This document shows, one piece after another, positions 16,838 through 32,680 of a DNA stretch of 64,000 nucleotides; within the stretch, counting starts at the first letter, position 1; every line of letters starts with the position of its first letter. The notes under the pieces were generated by a model, which was not told the origin of the DNA, did no database searches, and saw nothing but the letters and a program-made list of their open reading frames with translations. The translations under genes and the position numbers were made by a program. This DNA comes from Thermaerobacter sp. PB12/4term (lineage in GTDB: Bacteria > Bacillota > Sulfobacillia > Thermaerobacterales > Thermaerobacteraceae). The stretch spans positions 1,488,001 to 1,552,000 of the forward strand of contig NZ_CP048407.1 in the NCBI RefSeq assembly GCF_003403315.2. The letters are read 5' to 3'.

Positions 16838-17812
16838 CTAAGCCAGCCAGCGGGCCACCTCGGGCGCATGATACGTGATGATGGCATCCGCTCCCGCCCG
16901 GCGCATGGCCGTCAGGGTCTCCAGCACCACGGCCCGCTCGTCGACCCAGCCCTGGGCCGCCGCCGCCTTGATCAGGCTGTACTCGCCACTGACATTGTAC
17001 GCCACCACCGGGACCGGGAACTGCTGGCGCACGGCGCGGATCACGTCCAGGTAGGCCAGAGCGGGCTTCACCATCACCAGGTCGGCCCCCTCCTCCAGGT
17101 CCAGAGCCACCTCCCGCAGGGCCTCCCGGACGTTGGCCGGGTCCATCTGGTGGGTCCGCCGGTCGCCGAAGGCCGGTGCCGAGTGGGCCGCCTCGCGGAA
17201 AGGCCCGTAGAAGGCGGACGCATACTTGACGGCGTACGAAAGGATGGCCGTGTCCTGGAAGCCGTGCTCGTCCAGCACCCTGCGCACGGCACCCACGCGA
17301 CCGTCCATCATGTCCGACGGGGCGACCCAGTCGGCACCCGCCCGGGCGTGGGACAGGGCGACCCGCGCCAGCTGCTCCAGGGTGGCGTCGTTGTCGATGC
17401 GGCCGTCGGGGGTCAGGATGCCGCAGTGGCCGTGGCTGGTGTACGCGCAGAGGCACACATCGGTGATGACCAGCAGGTCCGGCAAGGCCTCCTTGAGGGC
17501 GGCAACGGCCTGCTGGACGGCGCCGTCCGGGTCGGCGGCCTCGCTGCCGCGGTCATCCTTCTGCCGGGGGAGTCCGAACAGCAGCACCGCCCGGATCCCC
17601 AGCCCATAGACCTCCCGGGCCCGCTCCACCGCCCGGTCCACGGAACGGTGCTCCACCCCCGGCATGGAAAGCACGGGTTCCACCACGTCCCTGCCGGGAA
17701 CCACAAACATGGGGTAGATCAGCCGGTCGGCGGTGAGGTCCGTCTCGCGCACCAGGCTGCGGACCACGGGGGTGGCGCGCAGCCGGCGCGGCCGGTGTAC
17801 GGGGAACGCCAT
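16838..17812 (-). CDS. hemB: Porphobilinogen synthase (5-aminolevulinate dehydratase)
   Basis: 324 aa. Joins two 5-aminolevulinates to porphobilinogen. The zinc-binding triad [12 protein letters not shown] (Cys120, Cys122, Cys130) marks it as a Zn enzyme, and the Schiff-base regions [16 protein letters not shown] and [10 protein letters not shown] are present. Start ATG at 17812 is chosen because GAGGTGA lies five bases upstream; the GTG three codons earlier falls inside that site. It ends the hemA-hemX-hemC-hemD-hemB run. Confidence 0.95.
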
Positions 17813-17944
17813 GGAAGTCACCTCGGATGCGCGTCCGGCGCCCGGCCGGGCTGGTCCGTGTCCAGCCCCCGCCGCAGCGGCCAGGGCCGGGCATCCCGCC
17901 GGGAGCCGGGATCTGGCCGGCCGGAACTCCGCCCATTGGGCGTT

Positions 17945-19549
17945 TTAAGCCTTTCCGCCAGCCGTTTTCATTTCGAGGAGAGCTGCCACGAGTCCTGCCG
18001 CCGTGTAGCGGAGCGGCACGCCGTCCACCGGCAGCCCCAGGGCGGCCGCCCGTTGGGCCGTGCGGGGGCCGATGCACACCACCCGGGGCCGGCCCGCCCC
18101 ATCCCCCTGCCCATCACCGCGGAAGAACCGGCCCGGCCCCCCGGGGCCCGCTGCCTCGGCCAGCGCCTCGGCGGCGGAGGGGCTGGCCAGGGTCACCACG
18201 TCCACCTGCCGGTTCGCCAGCAGCTCGATCAGCACCGCCGCCTGATCATGCCGCAGCACCGTCCGGTAGACCACCGGAGCCCGCAGGTCCCCGCCGGCCG
18301 CCTCCACCGGCCGGGCGGCAGCCAGGCCGGCCCGGTCGCCCCGGGGCCAGACCACCCGCTGTCCCGGGGTGATGCGGCGGGCCAGTTCGTCCCACAACCG
18401 GGCGCCGGTGAACTCCGCCGGCATCAGATCCGGCCGGAGCCCCAAAGCCTCCCGCACGAAGCGGCGGGTTGCCTCCCCCACCACCGCCACCCGGGCGCCT
18501 GCCAGGGCGCGCGCATCCCGGCCCAGGGCGTCCAGCCGGCGGGCCAGGGCGGCGGCGCCGTTGCGGCTGGTCAGGACCCACCAGCTGCCGCAGGCAGACT
18601 CCAGCTCCCGGTCCAGCTCCCTCTCGCCGGCGGCGGGCTCCACGCCGATCAGGGGGACTTCCACCACCGTGGCCCCCAGCTGCCGCAAGAGCTCGGCCAG
18701 GCCCGCGGCCTGTTCGGGAGCCCGGGTGACCGCCACCCGCCATCCGGCCAGGGGCGGGGCCACCCAGCCGGCCACCGCGGCCGGCGCCCCGGTGCCGGAA
18801 GGCACCTCCCCGCTGCCGGCACCGGCGACCGCGTCCGCCGCCTCGGACCCGGCGGCCCCGCGCGCCGCCTGAGCCCCGGCGGCCGCCAGCCCACCCGGGC
18901 CACCCGGTGCCGGGGCCTCCCCGGGGGCAGGGCCGCCGCCGGGCGCGGGCAGTCGACCGGGCCAGGGCACGGGAATGAGCCCCACTCCCGCGGCAACCAG
19001 AGCTTCCATCTCCCCGCCCGGTAGACCGCCCCGCACCAGCCGGACGACCCGCAGCCCGGCCCGTGCCCACCGGGCCAGGCGCTGGGGAAGGTGCTGGGGC
19101 GGCAGCCGGCCCGCCGCCTGCAGGCGTGAAGGAAGGGGCACGGAGCCGGAAGCGGCGGCCGCTGCCGCTGGCACCACCCACAGGGCGGCCGTGGGGGACC
19201 GCCACGCCTCGACCACCGCCTCCAGGCCGGGATCGGCCACCACCACCTCCGCCGCCTGCAGGATCCGGCTGGCCCGCACCGTCACCAGCCCGGGATCGCC
19301 CGGTCCCCCATCCACGATGTAGATCCAGCCCGGGGGCGCCCACAGGTCGGGGGCGCCGTCGTCCCCACCCCCTACCATGGAGGAGGGCAGGACGGCCTCC
19401 CTTCCCTGCGCCGGGCCCTGGTCCGGTGCAGGGACCTGCGCCCGCGGCCAGGCCGCCTCCGGGGGCACCCAGGCCCCGGCCGGCTCCTGGGACCCGGCGG
19501 GGCCGGCCGGATCCTTCCTGCGGTGCCCCTCATCCCCCGTCGCCGTCAC
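17945..19549 (-). CDS. hemD: Uroporphyrinogen-III synthase fused to a truncated CobA-like domain
   Basis: 534 aa. C-terminal part (about 268-534) is HemD: WRVAVTRAPEQAAGLAELLRQLGA, LTSRNGAAAL, VVCIGPRTAQRAAALGLPV; it cyclises hydroxymethylbilane with ring-D inversion. The N-terminal part (about 74-199) resembles the SAM-binding start of CobA/SUMT (GWIYIVDGGPGDPGLVTVRASRILQAAEVVVAD) but is only about half length: the family VRLKGGDP motif is changed to VRLVRGGLPGG and the C-terminal half is absent, replaced by a Gly/Ala/Pro linker (200-265). Methyltransferase activity is therefore doubtful. The GTG start overlaps hemC by 20 bases and has GGGGGAG nine bases upstream; an upstream GTG at 19555 is also possible. 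Confidence 0.85.
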   Translation of the reverse strand: MTATGDEGHRRKDPAGPAGSQEPAGAWVPPEAAWPRAQVPAPDQGPAQGREAVLPSSMVGGGDDGAPDLWAPPGWIYIVDGGPGDPGLVTVRASRILQAAEVVVADPGLEAVVEAWRSPTAALWVVPAAAAAASGSVPLPSRLQAAGRLPPQHLPQRLARWARAGLRVVRLVRGGLPGGEMEALVAAGVGLIPVPWPGRLPAPGGGPAPGEAPAPGGPGGLAAAGAQAARGAAGSEAADAVAGAGSGEVPSGTGAPAAVAGWVAPPLAGWRVAVTRAPEQAAGLAELLRQLGATVVEVPLIGVEPAAGERELDRELESACGSWWVLTSRNGAAALARRLDALGRDARALAGARVAVVGEATRRFVREALGLRPDLMPAEFTGARLWDELARRITPGQRVVWPRGDRAGLAAARPVEAAGGDLRAPVVYRTVLRHDQAAVLIELLANRQVDVVTLASPSAAEALAEAAGPGGPGRFFRGDGQGDGAGRPRVVCIGPRTAQRAAALGLPVDGVPLRYTAAGLVAALLEMKTAGGKA

Positions 19550-20618
19550 CGCCACCCGCTCCCCCTTCCCGGGAGGCCGGCCCCCCGGGGCCGCCCGCTC
19601 CGGCCGCCGGCCGCGACGCGGCCTCCACCATGACCCCCGCCTGGGCCAGGACGCCGGCAGCTCCCTTGGCCAGCAGCTGTTCCGCCAGGCGGCGCCCCGT
19701 GCCCTCCGGATCGGACAGGGACCCTTCGCCACGACCGGTGAGCCAAGGGCTTCCCGCGGGGCCGGCTACCATGCCGTCGATGACGAGCCGGCCGCCCTCC
19801 ACCCGCGCCCAGGCCCCCAGGGGCACTCGGCACGTGCCCCCCAGTTCGGCCAGGAAGGCCCGTTCCGCCCGCACCGCCCGGCTGACCTCGGGCCGGTCGA
19901 GCACCTGCACCCGGCGGCGCACCGCCTCATCCCCGGCCCGGATCTCCACGGCCAGGGCCCCCTGGCCGGGGGCCGGCAGCAGTTCCAGGGGCGGCACCAG
20001 CGCGGAGATGCGCCCGGCGAACCCCAGGCGGCGGAGACCGGCGGCGGCCAGCAGCAGGGCATCCCAGTGGCCTTCGTCGAGACGGCGCAGGCGGGTGTCC
20101 AGGTTGCCGCGGGCCGGCTCGACCGCCAGGTCCGGGCGGCGGGCCCGCAGCCAGGCTTGGCGGCGCAGGCTGCTGGTGCCCACGCGAGCGCCCGGCGGCA
20201 GGGCCGCCAGCAGGTCACGGGCCTCGCTGTCCGGCGGCTCCTCTCCGCCGTGGCCCATCACCGAGAGCCGGCCGGTCGCCGCCCGGGGGAGGACCAGGGC
20301 GTCGGCCGGGTCTTCCCGCTGGGGAAAGGCCGCCAGCTCCAGGCCCTCGGGCAGTCGGGTGGGGACGTCCTTGGCGCTGTGCACGGCCAGGTCGATGCGC
20401 CCCTCCAGCAGCGCCTCCTCCAGTTCCTTGACGAAAGCGCCGGGGCTGCTGAGGGCGTACAGGGGCCGCGACCGGTTGCGGTCTCCCAGCGTCGTCACGG
20501 GCACCAGCTCGACCTGGAGGCCGGGATGGTGGGTTTCAAGTTGCCGGGCCACCCACTGTGCCTGGATGCGTGCCAGGGCGCTGGCGCGGGTGCCGATGCG
20601 CAGGACCGCTGCTGTCAA
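19530..20618 (-). CDS. hemC: Hydroxymethylbilane synthase (porphobilinogen deaminase)
   Basis: 362 aa. Polymerises four porphobilinogens on a dipyrromethane cofactor. The catalytic Asp84 (HSAKDVPT) and cofactor Cys263 (LAELGGTCRVPLG) are present, as are RIGTRASALA and GTSSLRRQAWL. About 25 extra residues (112-140) and a Gly-rich tail of some 30 residues explain the length above the usual 310. The start is TTG, preceded by GGGGGAGGG. It overlaps hemD and follows hemX closely. Confidence 0.95.
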   Translation of the reverse strand: MTAAVLRIGTRASALARIQAQWVARQLETHHPGLQVELVPVTTLGDRNRSRPLYALSSPGAFVKELEEALLEGRIDLAVHSAKDVPTRLPEGLELAAFPQREDPADALVLPRAATGRLSVMGHGGEEPPDSEARDLLAALPPGARVGTSSLRRQAWLRARRPDLAVEPARGNLDTRLRRLDEGHWDALLLAAAGLRRLGFAGRISALVPPLELLPAPGQGALAVEIRAGDEAVRRRVQVLDRPEVSRAVRAERAFLAELGGTCRVPLGAWARVEGGRLVIDGMVAGPAGSPWLTGRGEGSLSDPEGTGRRLAEQLLAKGAAGVLAQAGVMVEAASRPAAGAGGPGGPASREGGAGGGDGDGG

Positions 20619-20657
20619 CCTCGTCCCTCCCCCACGGCTCCGGGCCGCCGGGCCGGT

Positions 20658-21581
20658 TCAGAACACGTGGCGTGCCGACCAGTGCGGCCCCACCACCAGG
20701 TAGTTCACCAGGATGACGGCAAAGCCCAGCAGGGACAGGTAAGCCAGCCGGCGGCCCCGCCAGCCGGCCCATGCCCGCAGGGCCAGGCAGGCAGCGTAGA
20801 ACAGCCAGACGCCGGCGCTGGCAAGGACCTTCCCGTCACGGGCCCAGGGCCCCTCCCAGAGGCGGCCGGCCTGCAGGGTGCCACTGGCCAGGGCCAGGGT
20901 GAGCAGGGCGAAGCCGCTGCCCACCAGCCACCAGCAGGCCCGGTCCATCTCCTCCAGGGCGGGCAGGTGGCGGTAGAGCCGACTAAAGGCCTTGACCCGC
21001 AGCTGCCGCTCCTGGAGCAGGTACATGGCGGCCAGGGCCGAGGCCAGGCCGAAGGCTCCGTAGCTCAGAAGGGCGATGGTGGCGTGGAGCCAGACCCATG
21101 GACCGGCGCCAAGCAGCGGGGACTCGGCGGTGCCCGGGGCAGGTGCCGCCGGCACCTGCCCCGGGGCAGGCGCAGGTCCCAGCACCCCGGCGCCGGCTGC
21201 GGTACCGGCCGGCAGGCCGGCGGCGAGGGCGCCGCCGGGGGCCGGCGGGGCGCCCGCCGCCATCAGCACCAGCAACACCACCACGGGGGGCAGCATGAAG
21301 GCTCCCAGGGGTCGCAAGGGCAGCAGCGCCTCCAGCAAGATGCCGTTGAGGATCCATGCCCAGCTCAGGAAGAACACCGATCCCTGGGGACTGACGAAGG
21401 GGATGTGCCCGGTAGCCAGCGCCCCGCCCAGCAACGCAGTGTGGGCGCACCACGTCACCCAGACAAGCCACCGGGCCGGGCCGTCCCGGGCAAAACCCGC
21501 CAGGGCCCAGGCGTGCCAGGCCGCGGCCGCCACGTAGCCCAAGGTGATGCCCACGTACCCCCACGCGAGCCAGCCCTGCAC
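20658..21581 (-). CDS. hemX: HemX/CcsA-like membrane protein
   Basis: 307 aa with about eight hydrophobic segments. The conserved core of the cytochrome c assembly (CcsA/HemX) family is recognisable: HATIALLSYGAFGLASALAAMYLLQERQLR and the histidine-bearing WLVWVTWCAHTALLG. A Gly/Ala/Pro insert (about 110-150) splits the middle. In Bacillus the equivalent HemX sits between hemA and hemC, as here, and controls HemA abundance; a haem-handling role is also possible. The GTG start has AGGTGA six bases upstream. Confidence 0.85.
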   Translation of the reverse strand: MQGWLAWGYVGITLGYVAAAAWHAWALAGFARDGPARWLVWVTWCAHTALLGGALATGHIPFVSPQGSVFFLSWAWILNGILLEALLPLRPLGAFMLPPVVVLLVLMAAGAPPAPGGALAAGLPAGTAAGAGVLGPAPAPGQVPAAPAPGTAESPLLGAGPWVWLHATIALLSYGAFGLASALAAMYLLQERQLRVKAFSRLYRHLPALEEMDRACWWLVGSGFALLTLALASGTLQAGRLWEGPWARDGKVLASAGVWLFYAACLALRAWAGWRGRRLAYLSLLGFAVILVNYLVVGPHWSARHVF

Positions 21582-21598
21582 CCGGCCTCACCTGCCGC

Positions 21599-23125
21599 TC
21601 ATGCCCGGGCGCTGCCGCTTTCCCCGAACCGACGGCGGGGCAGGGCCAGCACCGGATCACCGGACGCGGAACCGGCCGGGCCCGCGGTACCGGTGCCCCC
21701 TCCCGGCGCGGGCTCCGCGCCGTCTCCGGCGGCGGCCTGTCCCCGCCGGGCCTGGCGACCCGCCGTGCCCTCCGGCCCGCCGGCGGCCGGCTCCGCCCCG
21801 GCCGACTCCGCACCGGCCGGCCCCGCCTGTGGCGCCGGGCGGCGTCCGGCGGGGCCGGGTTCGTCCAGGGCGAAGAGCTCGGTGAAAGCCTCATCCAGGT
21901 AGACGGGGCCGCGCCCTCCGGCCACCGCCTCCTTCAGGCGCACCATGGGATCGTTCAGCAGCTTGTTGACGATCAGCCGGGTCAGGCCGTCGATGACCTG
22001 CCGGTCCCGCTCCGACAGATGGGGCAGCTTGCGCAGGGCGCGGGCCAGCTCTTCCTGCCGCATGGCCTCGGCCTTGGCCCGCAGGGAGCGGATCAGAGGC
22101 ACCACGTCCAGGCTGTGCAGCCACCCCTCAAAGCCCCGGACCTCGTCGTCGATCATGGCCTCGACCCGGGCCGCCTCCTCCCGCCGCAGCCGGAGGTTGG
22201 CTTCCACCACCGCCTGCAGGTCGTCGATGTCGTACAGGAACACCCCGTCCAGCCGGCCCGCCGCCGGCTCGATGTCGCGGGGCACGGCGATATCCACCAG
22301 CAGCAGCGGCCGGCCCCGCCGGCGGCGCATGGCGTCCCGCACCATGGCGGCGGTGATCAGGGGCCGCCCGGCGCCGGTGGAACTGATCACCACGTCGCAG
22401 CGGTCCAGGGCCGCCGGCAGCTCGCCCAGCGACACCGCCTCGCCGCCGTAAGCGGCGGCCAGTTGCCGGCCCCGCTCCAGGGTCCGGTTGGCCACCACCA
22501 GCCGGCAGCCGCCCTCCTCGGCCAGACTGCGGGCGGCCAGTTCCGCCGTCTCGCCGGCGCCCACCAGCAGCACCCGCCGCCCGTCCAGGTGGCCGAAGAC
22601 CTTGCGGGCCAGTTCCACCGCCACATAACTGACGGACACCGCATGCTGGCTGATGGCCGTCTCCGTCCGGGCCCGCTTCCCTACCGCCAGGGCCTGCTGG
22701 AAGAGACCGTGCAGCACCTTGCCACAGGTTCCCGCGGCGGCAGCCCCGTGGTAGGCTTCCCGTACCTGGCCCAGGATCTGGCTCTCCCCCAGGACCATGG
22801 AGTCCAGGCCCGCCGCCACGCGGAACAGGTGCCGCGCCGCCGCGGCATCTTCCCGGACATAGAGATAGGTCTCCAGCCGGTCCGGGTCCATGCCGGCCCA
22901 GCGAGCCAGCACGTCCCGCACCTGGCGCCGGCCCTGGCCATGGTGGGAGGCCGCCGCGTACACCTCCACCCGGTTGCAGGTGGAGAGCAGCACCACCTCA
23001 TCGAGGGCCGGGCAGGCTGCCAGCTCCGCCAGGGCCGCCGGCAGCCCCTCACCGGCCACCGCCAGGCGCTCCCGCACCGCGACCGGAGCCGTGCGGTGGT
23101 TCATGCCGAGCACGATCACGCCCAT
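21599..23125 (-). CDS. hemA: Glutamyl-tRNA reductase
   Basis: 508 aa. First step of C5-pathway haem synthesis: reduces Glu-tRNA to glutamate-1-semialdehyde. GMNHRTAPVAVRE at the N-terminus, nucleophile Cys50 (LLSTCNRVEVY), FRVAAGLDSMVLGESQILGQVR, NADPH site LLVGAGETAELAA, and the helical dimerisation domain are intact. The final 90 residues are a Pro/Ala/Gly-rich tail beyond the normal end. The ATG overlaps menG by 10 bases. The hemL partner is not in the window. Confidence 0.95.
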   Translation of the reverse strand: MGVIVLGMNHRTAPVAVRERLAVAGEGLPAALAELAACPALDEVVLLSTCNRVEVYAAASHHGQGRRQVRDVLARWAGMDPDRLETYLYVREDAAAARHLFRVAAGLDSMVLGESQILGQVREAYHGAAAAGTCGKVLHGLFQQALAVGKRARTETAISQHAVSVSYVAVELARKVFGHLDGRRVLLVGAGETAELAARSLAEEGGCRLVVANRTLERGRQLAAAYGGEAVSLGELPAALDRCDVVISSTGAGRPLITAAMVRDAMRRRRGRPLLLVDIAVPRDIEPAAGRLDGVFLYDIDDLQAVVEANLRLRREEAARVEAMIDDEVRGFEGWLHSLDVVPLIRSLRAKAEAMRQEELARALRKLPHLSERDRQVIDGLTRLIVNKLLNDPMVRLKEAVAGGRGPVYLDEAFTELFALDEPGPAGRRPAPQAGPAGAESAGAEPAAGGPEGTAGRQARRGQAAAGDGAEPAPGGGTGTAGPAGSASGDPVLALPRRRFGESGSARA

Positions 23126-23880
23126 CGGGGTCGCCGCCCCTCATGCAAGCAGACGATGCCCGCCGACATGCGCCAGAAGCGGACGCCTTCCAGGCCGGCC
23201 GCCGCCATGCGGCGGGCCAGTTCCTCCGCCCCGGGAAACCCCCGCACCGACAGGGGCAGCCAGGCGTAGGGATCGGGACCCGGCCCCCGCCAGCGGCGGG
23301 CGGCCCACCGCCCCATGGCGGGGACCACCCGCTCGAAGTACCAGCGGAAGGGCACCCTGACCCAGGGCCAGGGACTGTGGGAAAGCTCCAGGATCAGCAC
23401 CCGGCCGCCGGGACGGGTGACCCTGGCCATCTCGGCCAGGGCGCGGTCGAGGCTGGCCACGTTGCGCAAGGCGAAGCCCATGGTCACCAGGTCGAACTGG
23501 CCCGCCGCAAAGGGCATGTCCAGGGCGTCGCCCTGCACCAGGTCGACCCGGCCGGAGAGGCTCAGCGCCTCGAGCCGGTGCCGGGCAACGGCCAGCATGC
23601 CCGGGGAGAAATCCAGGCCGGTGACCCGGCCGGCAGGTCCCACCCGCCGGGCCAGCATGGCCGTGATCTCGCCGGTGCCGCAGGCCACGTCCAGGACCCG
23701 CGCCCCGTCCAGGGGCAGCTCCTCCAGCCGCCGGCGCAGCCGCCACTGCCAGTAGCGCCACTGCCCCAGGGTCATCAGCAGGTTCATCCGGTCGTAGCCG
23801 GGCGCAATGGTGTCGAAGAGCTCCCGGATGTAGGCGGCCTTGTCGGCGCCCCGGCCCGGGGCCGGGCTCTGAGCCCCCAT
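23116..23880 (-). CDS. menG: Demethylmenaquinone methyltransferase
   Basis: 254 aa, SAM-dependent class I methyltransferase of the UbiE/MenG family; methylates demethylmenaquinone in the last step of menaquinone synthesis. Family signatures: AYIRELFDTIAPGYDRMNLLMTLGQWRYW, VLDVACGTGEITAMLA (SAM motif I), GLDFSPGMLAVAR and TMGFALRNVASLDRAL. ATG with GAGGAAGGGA upstream. Placed between sucD and hemA, it links quinone synthesis with haem synthesis in the same transcript. Menaquinone rather than ubiquinone is assumed from the Gram-positive context. Confidence 0.93.
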   Translation of the reverse strand: MGAQSPAPGRGADKAAYIRELFDTIAPGYDRMNLLMTLGQWRYWQWRLRRRLEELPLDGARVLDVACGTGEITAMLARRVGPAGRVTGLDFSPGMLAVARHRLEALSLSGRVDLVQGDALDMPFAAGQFDLVTMGFALRNVASLDRALAEMARVTRPGGRVLILELSHSPWPWVRVPFRWYFERVVPAMGRWAARRWRGPGPDPYAWLPLSVRGFPGAEELARRMAAAGLEGVRFWRMSAGIVCLHEGRRPRWA

Positions 23881-28342: not shown

Positions 28343-28543
28343 CTAGGCGCCGGCACCGGTACCGGGTGCCCGCGGGGCCGGTCGTGAACCCGGGGCCTGC
28401 AGGCGGCCCAGTTCCCGCTCCAGCTCGCCCAGCCGGCGCACCAGGCGCCAGACGTAGGCGAAGAGCAGGCCGAACGCCACCGTGTAGGCCCAAAACAAAT
28501 AAACCAGAAGTTGTTGATCCAGTTCCGGGGTGATGGGCGGCAC
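28343..28543 (-). CDS. ccmD: CcmD-like haem exporter small subunit
   Basis: 66 aa. One membrane segment (LLVYLFWAYTVAFGLLFAYVW, about 12-32) followed by an amphipathic basic helix RLVRRLGELERELGRLQ and a Pro/Ala tail. Sequence conservation in CcmD is low; the call rests on size, topology and position directly after ccmC. The GTG start lies two bases after the ccmC stop and GGAGGGG precedes it. CcmD holds CcmC, CcmE and CcmAB together for release of holo-CcmE. Confidence 0.75.
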   Translation of the reverse strand: MPPITPELDQQLLVYLFWAYTVAFGLLFAYVWRLVRRLGELERELGRLQAPGSRPAPRAPGTGAGA

Positions 28544-28544
28544 C

Positions 28545-29219
28545 TTACCCCTCCTCCGTCCCGGCCCGGGCTTGCCGCACGCCATCGGCCAGGCGGGCAA
28601 GCCGCAGCCTCTGGTTGAGCAGCAGGAAGAACAGCAGGGTGAAGGCGGCCACGGCCGCCTGCAGGGCCAGGCGCATGGCCGGGTCCAGGTTCATGTCGCC
28701 GCCGCCCCGCAGGACGGGATGGATGGACGTCCACCACACCGACGACATGTAGACGATGGGCACGTTGAGGAACCCGGCGATGCCCAGGACCGCCGAATAC
28801 CGGCCCCGGGCGGCCGAATCGTCCACCGCCGCCCGGATGAGCAGGTAACCGGCGTAGAGGAACCAGAGGATCAGCGTGGTGGTCAGCTTGGGATCCCAGG
28901 TCCACCAGACGCCCCAGACGGCGCGCGCCCAGAGGGAGCCCATGATCAGGGTGATGGTGGTGAAGAGGACCCCCAGCTCGGCGGCCGACTCTGCCAGCCG
29001 GTCCCAGCGCCGCTGCGAGCCCCGCAGGTACGCGATGGAGGCTGCGAAGACGATGGCGAAGGCCAGGAAACCGACCCAGGCCGCCGCCACGTGGAAATAG
29101 AAGATGCGCTGGACGTTGCCCATCACCCGTTCGGGCGGTGCGTAGCGAAAGGCCATGTAGAGGGCCCCGACCAGCGCGCCGTAGGTTGTCACCGTCCATG
29201 CTGCCGCCAGGCGTGACAT
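28545..29219 (-). CDS. ccmC: Haem-handling protein CcmC
   Basis: 224 aa, six hydrophobic segments. The tryptophan-rich motif VWGVWWTWDPKLTTTLILW and the two flanking histidines (IFYFHVAAAW and SSVWWTSIHP) are those that bind haem for transfer to CcmE. Length is usual. ATG with AGGAGG upstream, ten bases after the ccmAB stop. Confidence 0.95.
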   Translation of the reverse strand: MSRLAAAWTVTTYGALVGALYMAFRYAPPERVMGNVQRIFYFHVAAAWVGFLAFAIVFAASIAYLRGSQRRWDRLAESAAELGVLFTTITLIMGSLWARAVWGVWWTWDPKLTTTLILWFLYAGYLLIRAAVDDSAARGRYSAVLGIAGFLNVPIVYMSSVWWTSIHPVLRGGGDMNLDPAMRLALQAAVAAFTLLFFLLLNQRLRLARLADGVRQARAGTEEG

Positions 29220-29229
29220 GGCTCGCCTC

Positions 29230-30909
29230 CTAGCGGGCTACCACATAGTCGAACAGCAGGGCGCCGGCGACCAGGAACATGGTATCATACACCGCCAGCA
29301 CCCGAAACCAAAGGGCCGCCTGTTCGGGGGCCCCGGACAGGGCGGCACCGGCGGCCTGCACCGACGCCAGCAGCACCGGCGCCGTCAGGGGGAAGAACAG
29401 CACGGGCAAGAGGGCCTCCCGCCCCCGCACCGCAGCCGTCAAGGCGCCCAGCAGGGTGCCCACCACCGCCAGCCCCGCCGTCCCCAACCCCAGGACCAGG
29501 AGGAAGCCGTCCCAGCGCGCCGGTCCCTGGAACCCCAGCCAGGACATGACCACCGGTGCCAGCACGAGCTCCAGGGCCAGCAGTTGAAGTCCCTGGGAGA
29601 CCACCCGGGCCAGGTAGATGGCGCTGCGGTCGGCCGGGGCCAGCAACAGGCCGTCCAGGGTGCCCCGGTCCGCGTCCCGGGCAAACCCCCGGCCGAAGAG
29701 GAGGACGGCGGCGAAATAGAATGCCACCCACACCAAGCCCCCCATGAGGGGCGACAGGTCGTGGCGGCCGGGATCCAGGGCGAAGGCCAGGGCCAGCCCC
29801 ACCAGCAGGACGAAGGTGGCCAGGTTGGCCAGGCCCTCCCGCCGACGCCATTCCTGGCGGAGATCAAGCTCCACCAGGGCCCTCAGGACGGCTCCCGCCG
29901 GCGGTTGGGGCGGCTCGGGCAGCCGCGCCGGAACCGCCAGGTCCGCCGCCGGAGCCGGGCCCGCCTGCGGCAGCGGGCGCGCGTCCGACGCCGGCGCCGG
30001 CGACCCCGCCGGCATGGACCGCCGGGAGCCGGCCTCGGGTCCGCCGCCGGAGCCGGAGCTGCCCGCCGCGGGTGCGCCCCGGCGGCCCGGCCAGCCGGCC
30101 GGCGGAACCAGGCCGTCACCGGCCCACCCCGGCTCCTGGGCTGCCCGGGCAAGCCAGGCCTCCAGGTCCGCCATTCCGACGCCCGCCGCCGGGAGGTCGT
30201 GGCCGGACCCGCCCGCCAGCAGGAGCAGCCGGCCGGCCAGGCGCAGCGCCCGGGCCGGCTCGTGCAGGACGACCACGGCCGTCCCGCCGGCCGCCGCGTG
30301 TTCCTCCACCAGGTTTTCCAGAAGCCGGGCAGCACCGGCGTCCAGGCCGGTAAAGGGCTCGTCCCACAGCCAGAGGAGCGGCCGGTGCATCATGGCCCGG
30401 GCCACTTCCAGCCGCTGGGCCAGCCCACGGGAGAGGTGCGCCGCCGGCCGGCCGGCGACGGCGACCAGGTTGAGCCGGTCCAGAAGCTCCCGGGCCCGCT
30501 CCTCGGCCTCCTGGCGGGGCATGCCGTAAAGGCGGCCGAAGAAGATCAGGTTCTCCCAGACCGACAGCTCGGGAAAGGCCAGGGGACGATGGCCCACGTA
30601 GCCCACCCACCGCCGCCAGGCGGGCTCCGCCGGCCGGGCGGGGGCACCGGCCACCCGCACCGTGCCCGCGCTGGGCCAGAGCAGGCCGGCCACCACCTGC
30701 AGCAGGGTGGTCTTGCCGGCACCGTTGGGTCCCATGACGGCGCCCACTTCGCCCGGGCCGAGCCTCCAGTGAAGGGACCGGAAGATGACCTGGTCGCCGT
30801 GGGCCCGTTCCAGGCCGGCCAGCTCCAGCACCGGGGCGCCGGGACCGGGCCGGGAGCCGGGCGCCGGGTCACCGGCCGGCAAGGCCGGCCGGGGCGCCAC
30901 CTGCTTCAC
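29230..30909 (-). CDS. ccmAB: CcmA-CcmB fusion: haem exporter ATPase plus permease
   Basis: 559 aa. Residues about 25-250 are the ABC ATPase CcmA: Walker A GPNGAGKTT (60-68), signature LSRGLAQR (159-166), Walker B LLWLWDEPFTGLD (about 178-190) and H-loop VLHEP. A Gly/Ala/Pro/Ser linker (about 263-338) leads into a complete CcmB permease (about 340-559, six membrane segments, starting VELDLRQEWRRREGLANLATF). The two are normally separate genes; here one frame is open through both. The GTG start overlaps the upstream TGA (GTGA). ATP hydrolysis by CcmA drives release of haem-loaded CcmE from CcmC. Confidence 0.92.
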   Translation of the reverse strand: MKQVAPRPALPAGDPAPGSRPGPGAPVLELAGLERAHGDQVIFRSLHWRLGPGEVGAVMGPNGAGKTTLLQVVAGLLWPSAGTVRVAGAPARPAEPAWRRWVGYVGHRPLAFPELSVWENLIFFGRLYGMPRQEAEERARELLDRLNLVAVAGRPAAHLSRGLAQRLEVARAMMHRPLLWLWDEPFTGLDAGAARLLENLVEEHAAAGGTAVVVLHEPARALRLAGRLLLLAGGSGHDLPAAGVGMADLEAWLARAAQEPGWAGDGLVPPAGWPGRRGAPAAGSSGSGGGPEAGSRRSMPAGSPAPASDARPLPQAGPAPAADLAVPARLPEPPQPPAGAVLRALVELDLRQEWRRREGLANLATFVLLVGLALAFALDPGRHDLSPLMGGLVWVAFYFAAVLLFGRGFARDADRGTLDGLLLAPADRSAIYLARVVSQGLQLLALELVLAPVVMSWLGFQGPARWDGFLLVLGLGTAGLAVVGTLLGALTAAVRGREALLPVLFFPLTAPVLLASVQAAGAALSGAPEQAALWFRVLAVYDTMFLVAGALLFDYVVAR

Positions 30910-32270
30910 CGGGCCGTCGCCTCCCCTCGGGGGGCTTCCGCAGCGACCGCCTCGCCGGCTCCCGGAAGGCGGGGGCCACCGGCTGCCCACGCCCGCCGGG
31001 TGGCCGCAACCGCCGCCTCCACCAGGCGCCGGCGCTCCTCCCGGTAGAGGGCCTCCGGCACCTCACCGGCGGCATAGGCCCGGTCCAGGTCCACAATGGC
31101 CTCGATCAGGAGCCGGCGGCGCAGCCACCAGCGGCGCGGGCTCCGCCGCCAGCGGGCAGCGCCCACCAGCGCCAGGGCTGCCACCGCCCCGGCCGCCACC
31201 AGGGCGGCGGCCCCCACCCAGCCCCCGGTGCCAGCCCCGCCTGGGCCGGCGCTCCCTCTTGCCGCCGGGCCGCCCTGGCCCGGGATGCGCCCGCTCCCTG
31301 GCGCGCTCCCCTGGCTGCCCGTCCCCGGTGCCATCCCGCCACCCTCACCGGTCCCGGACCGGTCCGGGCCGCCCGCCGCTTCCGCGGCCATTCCCGCCGG
31401 CATGAGGAGGATGGTATAGGTGCCCGGCTCCAGGGGACCTGCTCGCCACACCGCCAGGTCGGTGCCCGGCATGCCCAGTTCCGTTCCGGACACGGTGCCG
31501 GCGGGCTGCAGCCCGCTGCCGCTGGCCTCCAGCGTTCCGGCCACCGTCATCACCAGGAGCTGCTCCACGGCCGCGGGCAGGTCCACCGCCAGCCGCCCCT
31601 GGCTGGCCCGGGTATCGGCGATGAACGCATACACGTAGTCGCGGCTTTCTCCCGGCGGGGGCGGCGACGCATCCTCCAGGGCCTCCCCCGTCCAGCGGAG
31701 GCCTTCGGGCAGCGGCCGGGAAGGCTGGGCCAGCCGCAGCGACGGCAAGGCCAGGGCCCCGGCGGTACCGGCGCCCGGCCCTGGCTGGCCGGGCCAGCGG
31801 GCCAGCACCAGCACGGCCATGCCCTGGCCGGAGGGATCGGGGTGGACCACCAGGGTGACCCGTTCCCAGGTCCCCGGCGTCCCCGCTGCCGCCCTTGCCT
31901 CTTCCCCCCGCGGGGTGCCGGCCTCGGGGCCAGCCGGCACCTGGCCGGCACGCGGTGCAGCCCCTTCCGCCGCCGCGGCGGGGCGAGCTCCTCCTCCGGC
32001 CAAGGCCAAGGCAAGCCCCAGCACGAAGACCGCCACCAGCACGGTGGCGGTCCAGGCCTGCGTCCGGCGATCCGCCAGCTTCTTCGCCGCCACCCCGGCG
32101 GAGGGGCGGTCTGGACGCCCCGGGCTGGGGTGCCGGCTGCCCCTGGCGACGGCTGTCTCCCTACCCGTTCCTCGCATTCTTCCGTTCCAGCCCCTACCGT
32201 TCACGCCCTCGCCTGGCCATCCGGCCGGGACCGGTCCCGCCATGGAGACGGTCCCGGGCCGCTTGATCAC
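30906..32270 (-). CDS. Unknown membrane protein encoded between ccmE and ccmAB
   Basis: 454 aa if started at the GTG that overlaps the ccmE TGA (GTGA); ATG codons at 32243 and 32177 are alternatives. A membrane segment (TATVLVAVFVLGLALALAGG) is followed by an extracytoplasmic domain (WERVTLVVHPDPSGQGMAVLVLARWPG ... YAFIADTRASQGRLAVDLP ... GTYTILLMPAG), a second membrane segment (AALVAAGAVAALALVGAA) and a cytoplasmic tail with the helix EAIVDLDRAYAAGEVPEALYREERRRLVEAAVA. That tail pattern (LD-x-x-Y-x-x-G-x-[IV]-x-E-x-x-Y-x-x-x-R-x-x-L) recurs in proteins next to cytochrome c biogenesis genes in other bacteria, as I recall. It may replace a missing Ccm component such as CcmH/I, but has no CXXC. 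Function unknown. Confidence 0.7.
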   Translation of the reverse strand: MIKRPGTVSMAGPVPAGWPGEGVNGRGWNGRMRGTGRETAVARGSRHPSPGRPDRPSAGVAAKKLADRRTQAWTATVLVAVFVLGLALALAGGGARPAAAAEGAAPRAGQVPAGPEAGTPRGEEARAAAGTPGTWERVTLVVHPDPSGQGMAVLVLARWPGQPGPGAGTAGALALPSLRLAQPSRPLPEGLRWTGEALEDASPPPPGESRDYVYAFIADTRASQGRLAVDLPAAVEQLLVMTVAGTLEASGSGLQPAGTVSGTELGMPGTDLAVWRAGPLEPGTYTILLMPAGMAAEAAGGPDRSGTGEGGGMAPGTGSQGSAPGSGRIPGQGGPAARGSAGPGGAGTGGWVGAAALVAAGAVAALALVGAARWRRSPRRWWLRRRLLIEAIVDLDRAYAAGEVPEALYREERRRLVEAAVAATRRAWAAGGPRLPGAGEAVAAEAPRGEATAR

Positions 32271-32680
32271 CGGGCCGCCTGGGTCCCCGCCGCCTCGTAC
32301 TTGGACGGGCACTTCACCATCACCCGGTCGGCCACCAGGGTCGCGCCCTGCAGGCGCCCTTCCACCACCACGTCCACGCCGTCCTGAAGCAGATCGGGCT
32401 TCACGCCCTTGTAGACCACGGGCATGGCCCGCCCCGACTCCCCGGTCATGGCAAACCGGAGGGTCACCTGTTGCACGGCCCAGTCCACCGTTCCCGGTTC
32501 CACCTTGCCATGGACCCGGACGAACCGGTCGCCCAGACCGGCGGCCTGGTCCAGGGCCTGATCCACGGAGAGGTAGTAGGTCTTGGCGCTCTGAAAACCC
32601 ATCAAGGAGAGGTAGGCGATACCCGCCACCACCACCAGCACGGCTGCGGCCACCTTCACGCGGATGGACAACGCCGTCAC
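32267..32680 (-). CDS. ccmE: CcmE haem chaperone, CXXXY variant
   Basis: 137 aa. Membrane anchor 7-27, then the OB-fold domain (VRVHGKVEPGTV ... VVYKGVKPDLLQDGVDVVVEGRL) with the family's G-x-x-P-D-x-F/L-pattern. In the classical protein haem is bound covalently by His in HXXXY; here the equivalent site reads KCPSKY, Cys124 and Tyr128, i.e. CXXXY. This is the variant described in archaea and Desulfovibrio (system I*). The GTG start lies about 30 bases after a TATAAT promoter and heads the ccm operon. ccmF and ccmH are not in the window. Confidence 0.9.
   Translation of the reverse strand: MTALSIRVKVAAAVLVVVAGIAYLSLMGFQSAKTYYLSVDQALDQAAGLGDRFVRVHGKVEPGTVDWAVQQVTLRFAMTGESGRAMPVVYKGVKPDLLQDGVDVVVEGRLQGATLVADRVMVKCPSKYEAAGTQAAR

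Follow-up and report, generated by a model that had tools for sequence, protein, structure and literature searches.

System I* of Desulfovibrio and archaea is said to have been set out by Allen et al. 2006 and Goddard et al. 2010. In Methanosarcina acetivorans the homologous cysteine of the haem chaperone CcmE is needed for haem attachment (PMC9084895), and the cysteine requirement in Desulfovibrio desulfuricans CcmE has also been discussed (PMC3601427). The Desulfovibrio ccm operon, with its cysteine-type CcmE, functions in E. coli (PMC3601427). One report describes ferric haem bound non-covalently by D. vulgaris CcmE via its cysteine (PMC3884852), and one cannot therefore assume that all cysteine-type CcmE proteins attach haem covalently.

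Cysteine-type CcmE proteins were reported by Stevens et al. 2011 in delta-proteobacteria, Chloroflexi and Firmicutes, 25 of the 36 carrying the sequence CPSKY. About one third of the bacteria with a cysteine-type CcmE were found to have CcmH, and lack of CcmH was judged not to be characteristic of the cysteine variant (PMC3601427). An earlier note on the DNA analysed here linked the CXXXY site to absence of CcmH; that link goes back to how system I* was defined in 2006 and was withdrawn in print by Stevens et al. 2011 (PMC3601427).

The ccm gene cluster

The window, by which we mean the whole stretch of 64,000 nucleotides that was analysed, contains a cluster of ccm genes on the minus strand, in the following order.

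32267..32680, minus strand: ccmE, haem chaperone with a CXXXY (KCPSKY) site, Cys124 and Tyr128 (PF03100)
30906..32231, minus strand: operon protein, start uncertain, without Pfam or NCBIfam match
29230..30990, minus strand: ccmA-ccmB in one open reading frame, 586 amino acids, haem ABC exporter ATPase and permease (TIGR01189, PF00005, PF03379)
28545..29219, minus strand: ccmC, haem handling protein with a WGVWWTWD motif (PF01578, 123.6 bits)
28343..28600, minus strand: ccmD, small membrane protein (TIGR04391 CcmD family, 35.9 bits, cut-off 24)

The joint ccmA-ccmB frame matches the ccmA model TIGR01189 over its cut-off with 147.5 bits, and it also matches PF00005 and the CcmB family PF03379. 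The best NCBIfam model for ccmC is ccmC itself, at 130.9 bits and under its cut-off of 186, and the Pfam match is well over cut-off. CcmA and CcmB share a single frame also in two genomes of the same genus (G008 and G158) and in one of the same order (G094); they occupy different frames in G055 and L106. In the window the joint frame may yield one fused protein or, by way of an internal start, two proteins. A group of haem and menaquinone genes lies nearby on the same strand (16838-23880), comprising hemA, hemC, a methylase-hemD fusion, hemB and ubiE/menG, together with a HemX-like Cytochrom_C_asm protein at 20658-21581.

The protein at 30906-32231 matched no family when Pfam and NCBIfam were searched. 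From a reading of its sequence it has an apparent signal sequence, an extracellular region, a membrane span and a short helical tail, and a CcmI-like role is possible. Full-length orthologues were seen in the genus only. By eye the tail, DLDRAYAAGEVPEALYREERRRLVEA, looks like the extra tail of the same organism's CcmF, and it gives a weak match at the CcmH/CcmF locus of G094. We regard the one-frame arrangement of ccmA and ccmB and this genus-restricted protein as minor side observations.

The haem site of CcmE

The ccmE reading frame has a GTG start and encodes 137 amino acids. It matches the CcmE family (PF03100) with 90.5 bits against a cut-off of 24.6, over profile positions 2-98 of 99, and its predicted fold follows from homology to solved CcmE structures. 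The site reads VKCPSKYE, with Cys124-Pro-Ser-Lys-Tyr128, so that the protein has the histidine or cysteine four residues ahead of a tyrosine by which CcmE is recognised. In phmmer alignments Cys124 and Tyr128 pair with His130 and Tyr134 (KHDENY) of E. coli CcmE (8ce8 and 1sr3), and the same cysteine pairs with that of D. vulgaris CcmE (2kct). Both residues (C120 and Y124 in the trimmed copy) are unvarying across 25 diverse CcmE homologues, and the motif is therefore neither chance nor a sequencing error. The family match and the alignment thus agree with the earlier note, which had recognised here a CcmE with a CXXXY haem motif in a probable Gram-positive bacterium; the phylum of the host is Bacillota.

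A profile search of the genome (2.82 Mb, one contig, 99.99% complete) found no second CcmE of any type, which excludes an additional HXXXY protein.

Distribution of cysteine-type CcmE and of CcmH

By profile search, CcmE is present in 66 of 299 sampled Bacillota genomes; the phylum was recognised from CcmE sequences identical to those of named records, Thermincola ferriacetica among them. From these genomes 70 CcmE-like regions were read, of which 69 have a CXXXY/F site (two with phenylalanine in place of tyrosine) and none has HXXXY; the remaining region is divergent and shows neither motif. Copy L076 (in G125) has neither cysteine nor histidine at the site.

A scan of named genomes with the pattern KCPSKYE, built from 12 closer CcmE sequences, found at least 525 relatives; this pattern contains the cysteine and so gives no frequency for HXXXY, which the profile search provides for the Bacillota only. 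Desulfosporosinus and Bacillus-like genera are among the 80 relatives that were kept, along with Chloroflexota, Nitrospirota, KSB1, Calditrichota, Myxococcota, Acidobacteriota, Planctomycetota and Halodesulfovibrio. The view in the earlier note that this locus broadens the known distribution does not hold, CPSKY-containing CcmE having been in print for Firmicutes and Chloroflexi since 2011 (PMC3601427). One Chloroflexota contig (L160) carries two CcmE copies, the second with KCPHAY.

CcmH was found in 33 of the 66 Bacillota genomes with CcmE and in 31 of 50 genomes tested from the 80 kept relatives, and the corresponding absences are upper limits, as many of the genomes are incomplete drafts and a divergent CcmH may escape the search. 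Since all typed CcmE sites are of the cysteine type and one in two CcmE-bearing genomes has CcmH as well, the Bacillota are a handy group in which to ask how a cysteine-type CcmE operates when CcmH is present and when it is absent.

CcmE phylogeny and horizontal transfer

A tree of CcmE was built from 119 rows and 132 alignment columns, leaving out archaeal and proteobacterial HXXXY CcmE. The four members of the genus form one supported group. The nearest row to it by path is a Bacillota metagenome-assembled genome, followed by Chloroflexota, and most of the deep forks are weakly supported. CcmH presence changes 12 times on this tree, with at least four changes forced by well supported branches, from which we conclude that CcmH and the cysteine site of CcmE vary independently. 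Bacillota CcmE proteins of the TPYVTFxEA type form a group separate from the window CcmE, and 21 of its 23 rows are without CcmH. The divergent Bacillota forms were noted at L073/L074 and L062-L075, with the TPYVTFxEA-type clade in genomes without CcmH.

The earlier note had suggested horizontal transfer. All sites typed in the Bacillota are cysteine-type and the window CcmE groups with Bacillota in this tree, whose deep forks are weak and which holds no archaea; a transfer of the window CcmE is not indicated by these sequences. A more limited proposal is that the genus acquired the ccm cluster recently. The absence of CcmE from most of the sampled Bacillota genomes and from five listed genomes of the class favours this, but all four members of the genus have CcmE, as does the other genome from the order, and the neighbours of the genus group, insofar as the poorly supported deep forks allow, also speak against it. 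We consider a recent acquisition unlikely; older transfers are compatible with the weak deep forks.

The Ccm pathway in the genome

The genes of the Ccm pathway are present in this genome and their identities are clear. CcmABC(D)EF, by which System I is recognised, are all encoded. A ccmH gene (about C1:2482.4-2483.0 kb; C1:2482618-2482965) matches PF03918 with 100 bits, retains an intact LRCxxC motif (LRCPVCEGQ) and lies directly upstream of the genome's only ccmF, the pair being about 1 Mb from the ccmE cluster. CcmF matches CcmF_C (PF16327) and Cytochrom_C_asm (PF01578) over their cut-offs, contains a WGGVWAWD motif and reaches 451 bits with the CcmF/NrfE model, which is under that model's cut-off. 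The genome also encodes a CcdA-type protein and three TlpA/CcmG-like WCxxC proteins. There are CXXCH substrates, among them a diheme protein with a Rieske protein next to it and a monohaem protein that also has a membrane domain. The genome has no match to ResB (PF05140), which excludes System II.

The search of the genome for ccmF, ccmG and ccmH proposed in the earlier note thus recovered the first and the last, and for ccmG yielded the three TlpA-like candidates, none of which was singled out. The presence of ccmH contradicts the absence that the note had claimed. The note had named ccmH together with a second HXXXY CcmE as evidence against its reading, and only ccmH was found.

Almost certainly, the window CcmE is the haem chaperone of an otherwise complete System I. 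CcmAB, CcmC and CcmD would load haem onto Cys124 of CcmE, a membrane-anchored protein, on the outer side of the cytoplasmic membrane, and Tyr128 would probably ligate the iron. CcmF and CcmH would then pass the haem to the CXXCH sites of apocytochromes, which CcdA and a thioredoxin of the TlpA/CcmG type may hold in the reduced state. The covalent bond of haem to Cys124 and the sequence of these transfers are inferred from studies of cysteine-type CcmE in D. desulfuricans and M. acetivorans.

A variant of this scheme is that, in genomes like this one, CcmH serves cysteine-type CcmE specifically, for instance in releasing haem from the CcmE-cysteine thioether. We think this very unlikely; if it were true, CXXXY together with CcmH would represent a mechanism that differs from classical System I as well as from system I* without CcmH.

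It is less likely still that the window CcmE belongs to a true system I*, that is a horizontally acquired machine of the archaeal and Desulfovibrio type in which CcmF ligates haem without CcmH. The CXXXY site, one of the two marks of system I*, is present in CcmE, but lack of CcmH, the other mark in the original 2006 definition, is ruled out by the ccmH gene. In addition, CcmD is encoded here, whereas archaea lack it (PMC9084895), and the CcmE proteins of CcmH-less Bacillota fall mainly in a separate clade. The locus matters little as a discovery and serves as a correction: CXXXY in CcmE is no sign of a missing CcmH.

That CcmF and CcmH form a dedicated Nrf-type haem lyase, with the general pathway running without CcmH, is scarcely credible, for although NrfF is the best NCBIfam match of CcmH and NrfE models match CcmF, all below cut-off, this CcmF is the only one and the genome has no match to NrfA (PF02335), so the pair is not a nitrite-reductase-specific lyase.

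Comparison with known systems

The System I reading places this locus close to classical System I of E. coli, with which it has the functions CcmA to CcmF and CcmH in common. It differs in having CXXXY for HXXXY, in the division of its genes between two clusters, in the single frame of ccmA and ccmB and in the extra tail of CcmF. As in system I* of Desulfovibrio and archaea (PMC9084895), cysteine replaces the haem-binding histidine of CcmE; unlike that system, CcmH and TlpA/CcmG-like proteins are encoded. The closest counterparts are the systems of Firmicutes and Chloroflexi that pair a cysteine-type CcmE with CcmH (Stevens et al. 2011, PMC3601427); shared features are the CPSKY sequence, a Firmicutes host and CcmH. 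We see no difference from them that matters, and the window system is a further instance of an ordinary, already described cysteine-variant Ccm pathway.
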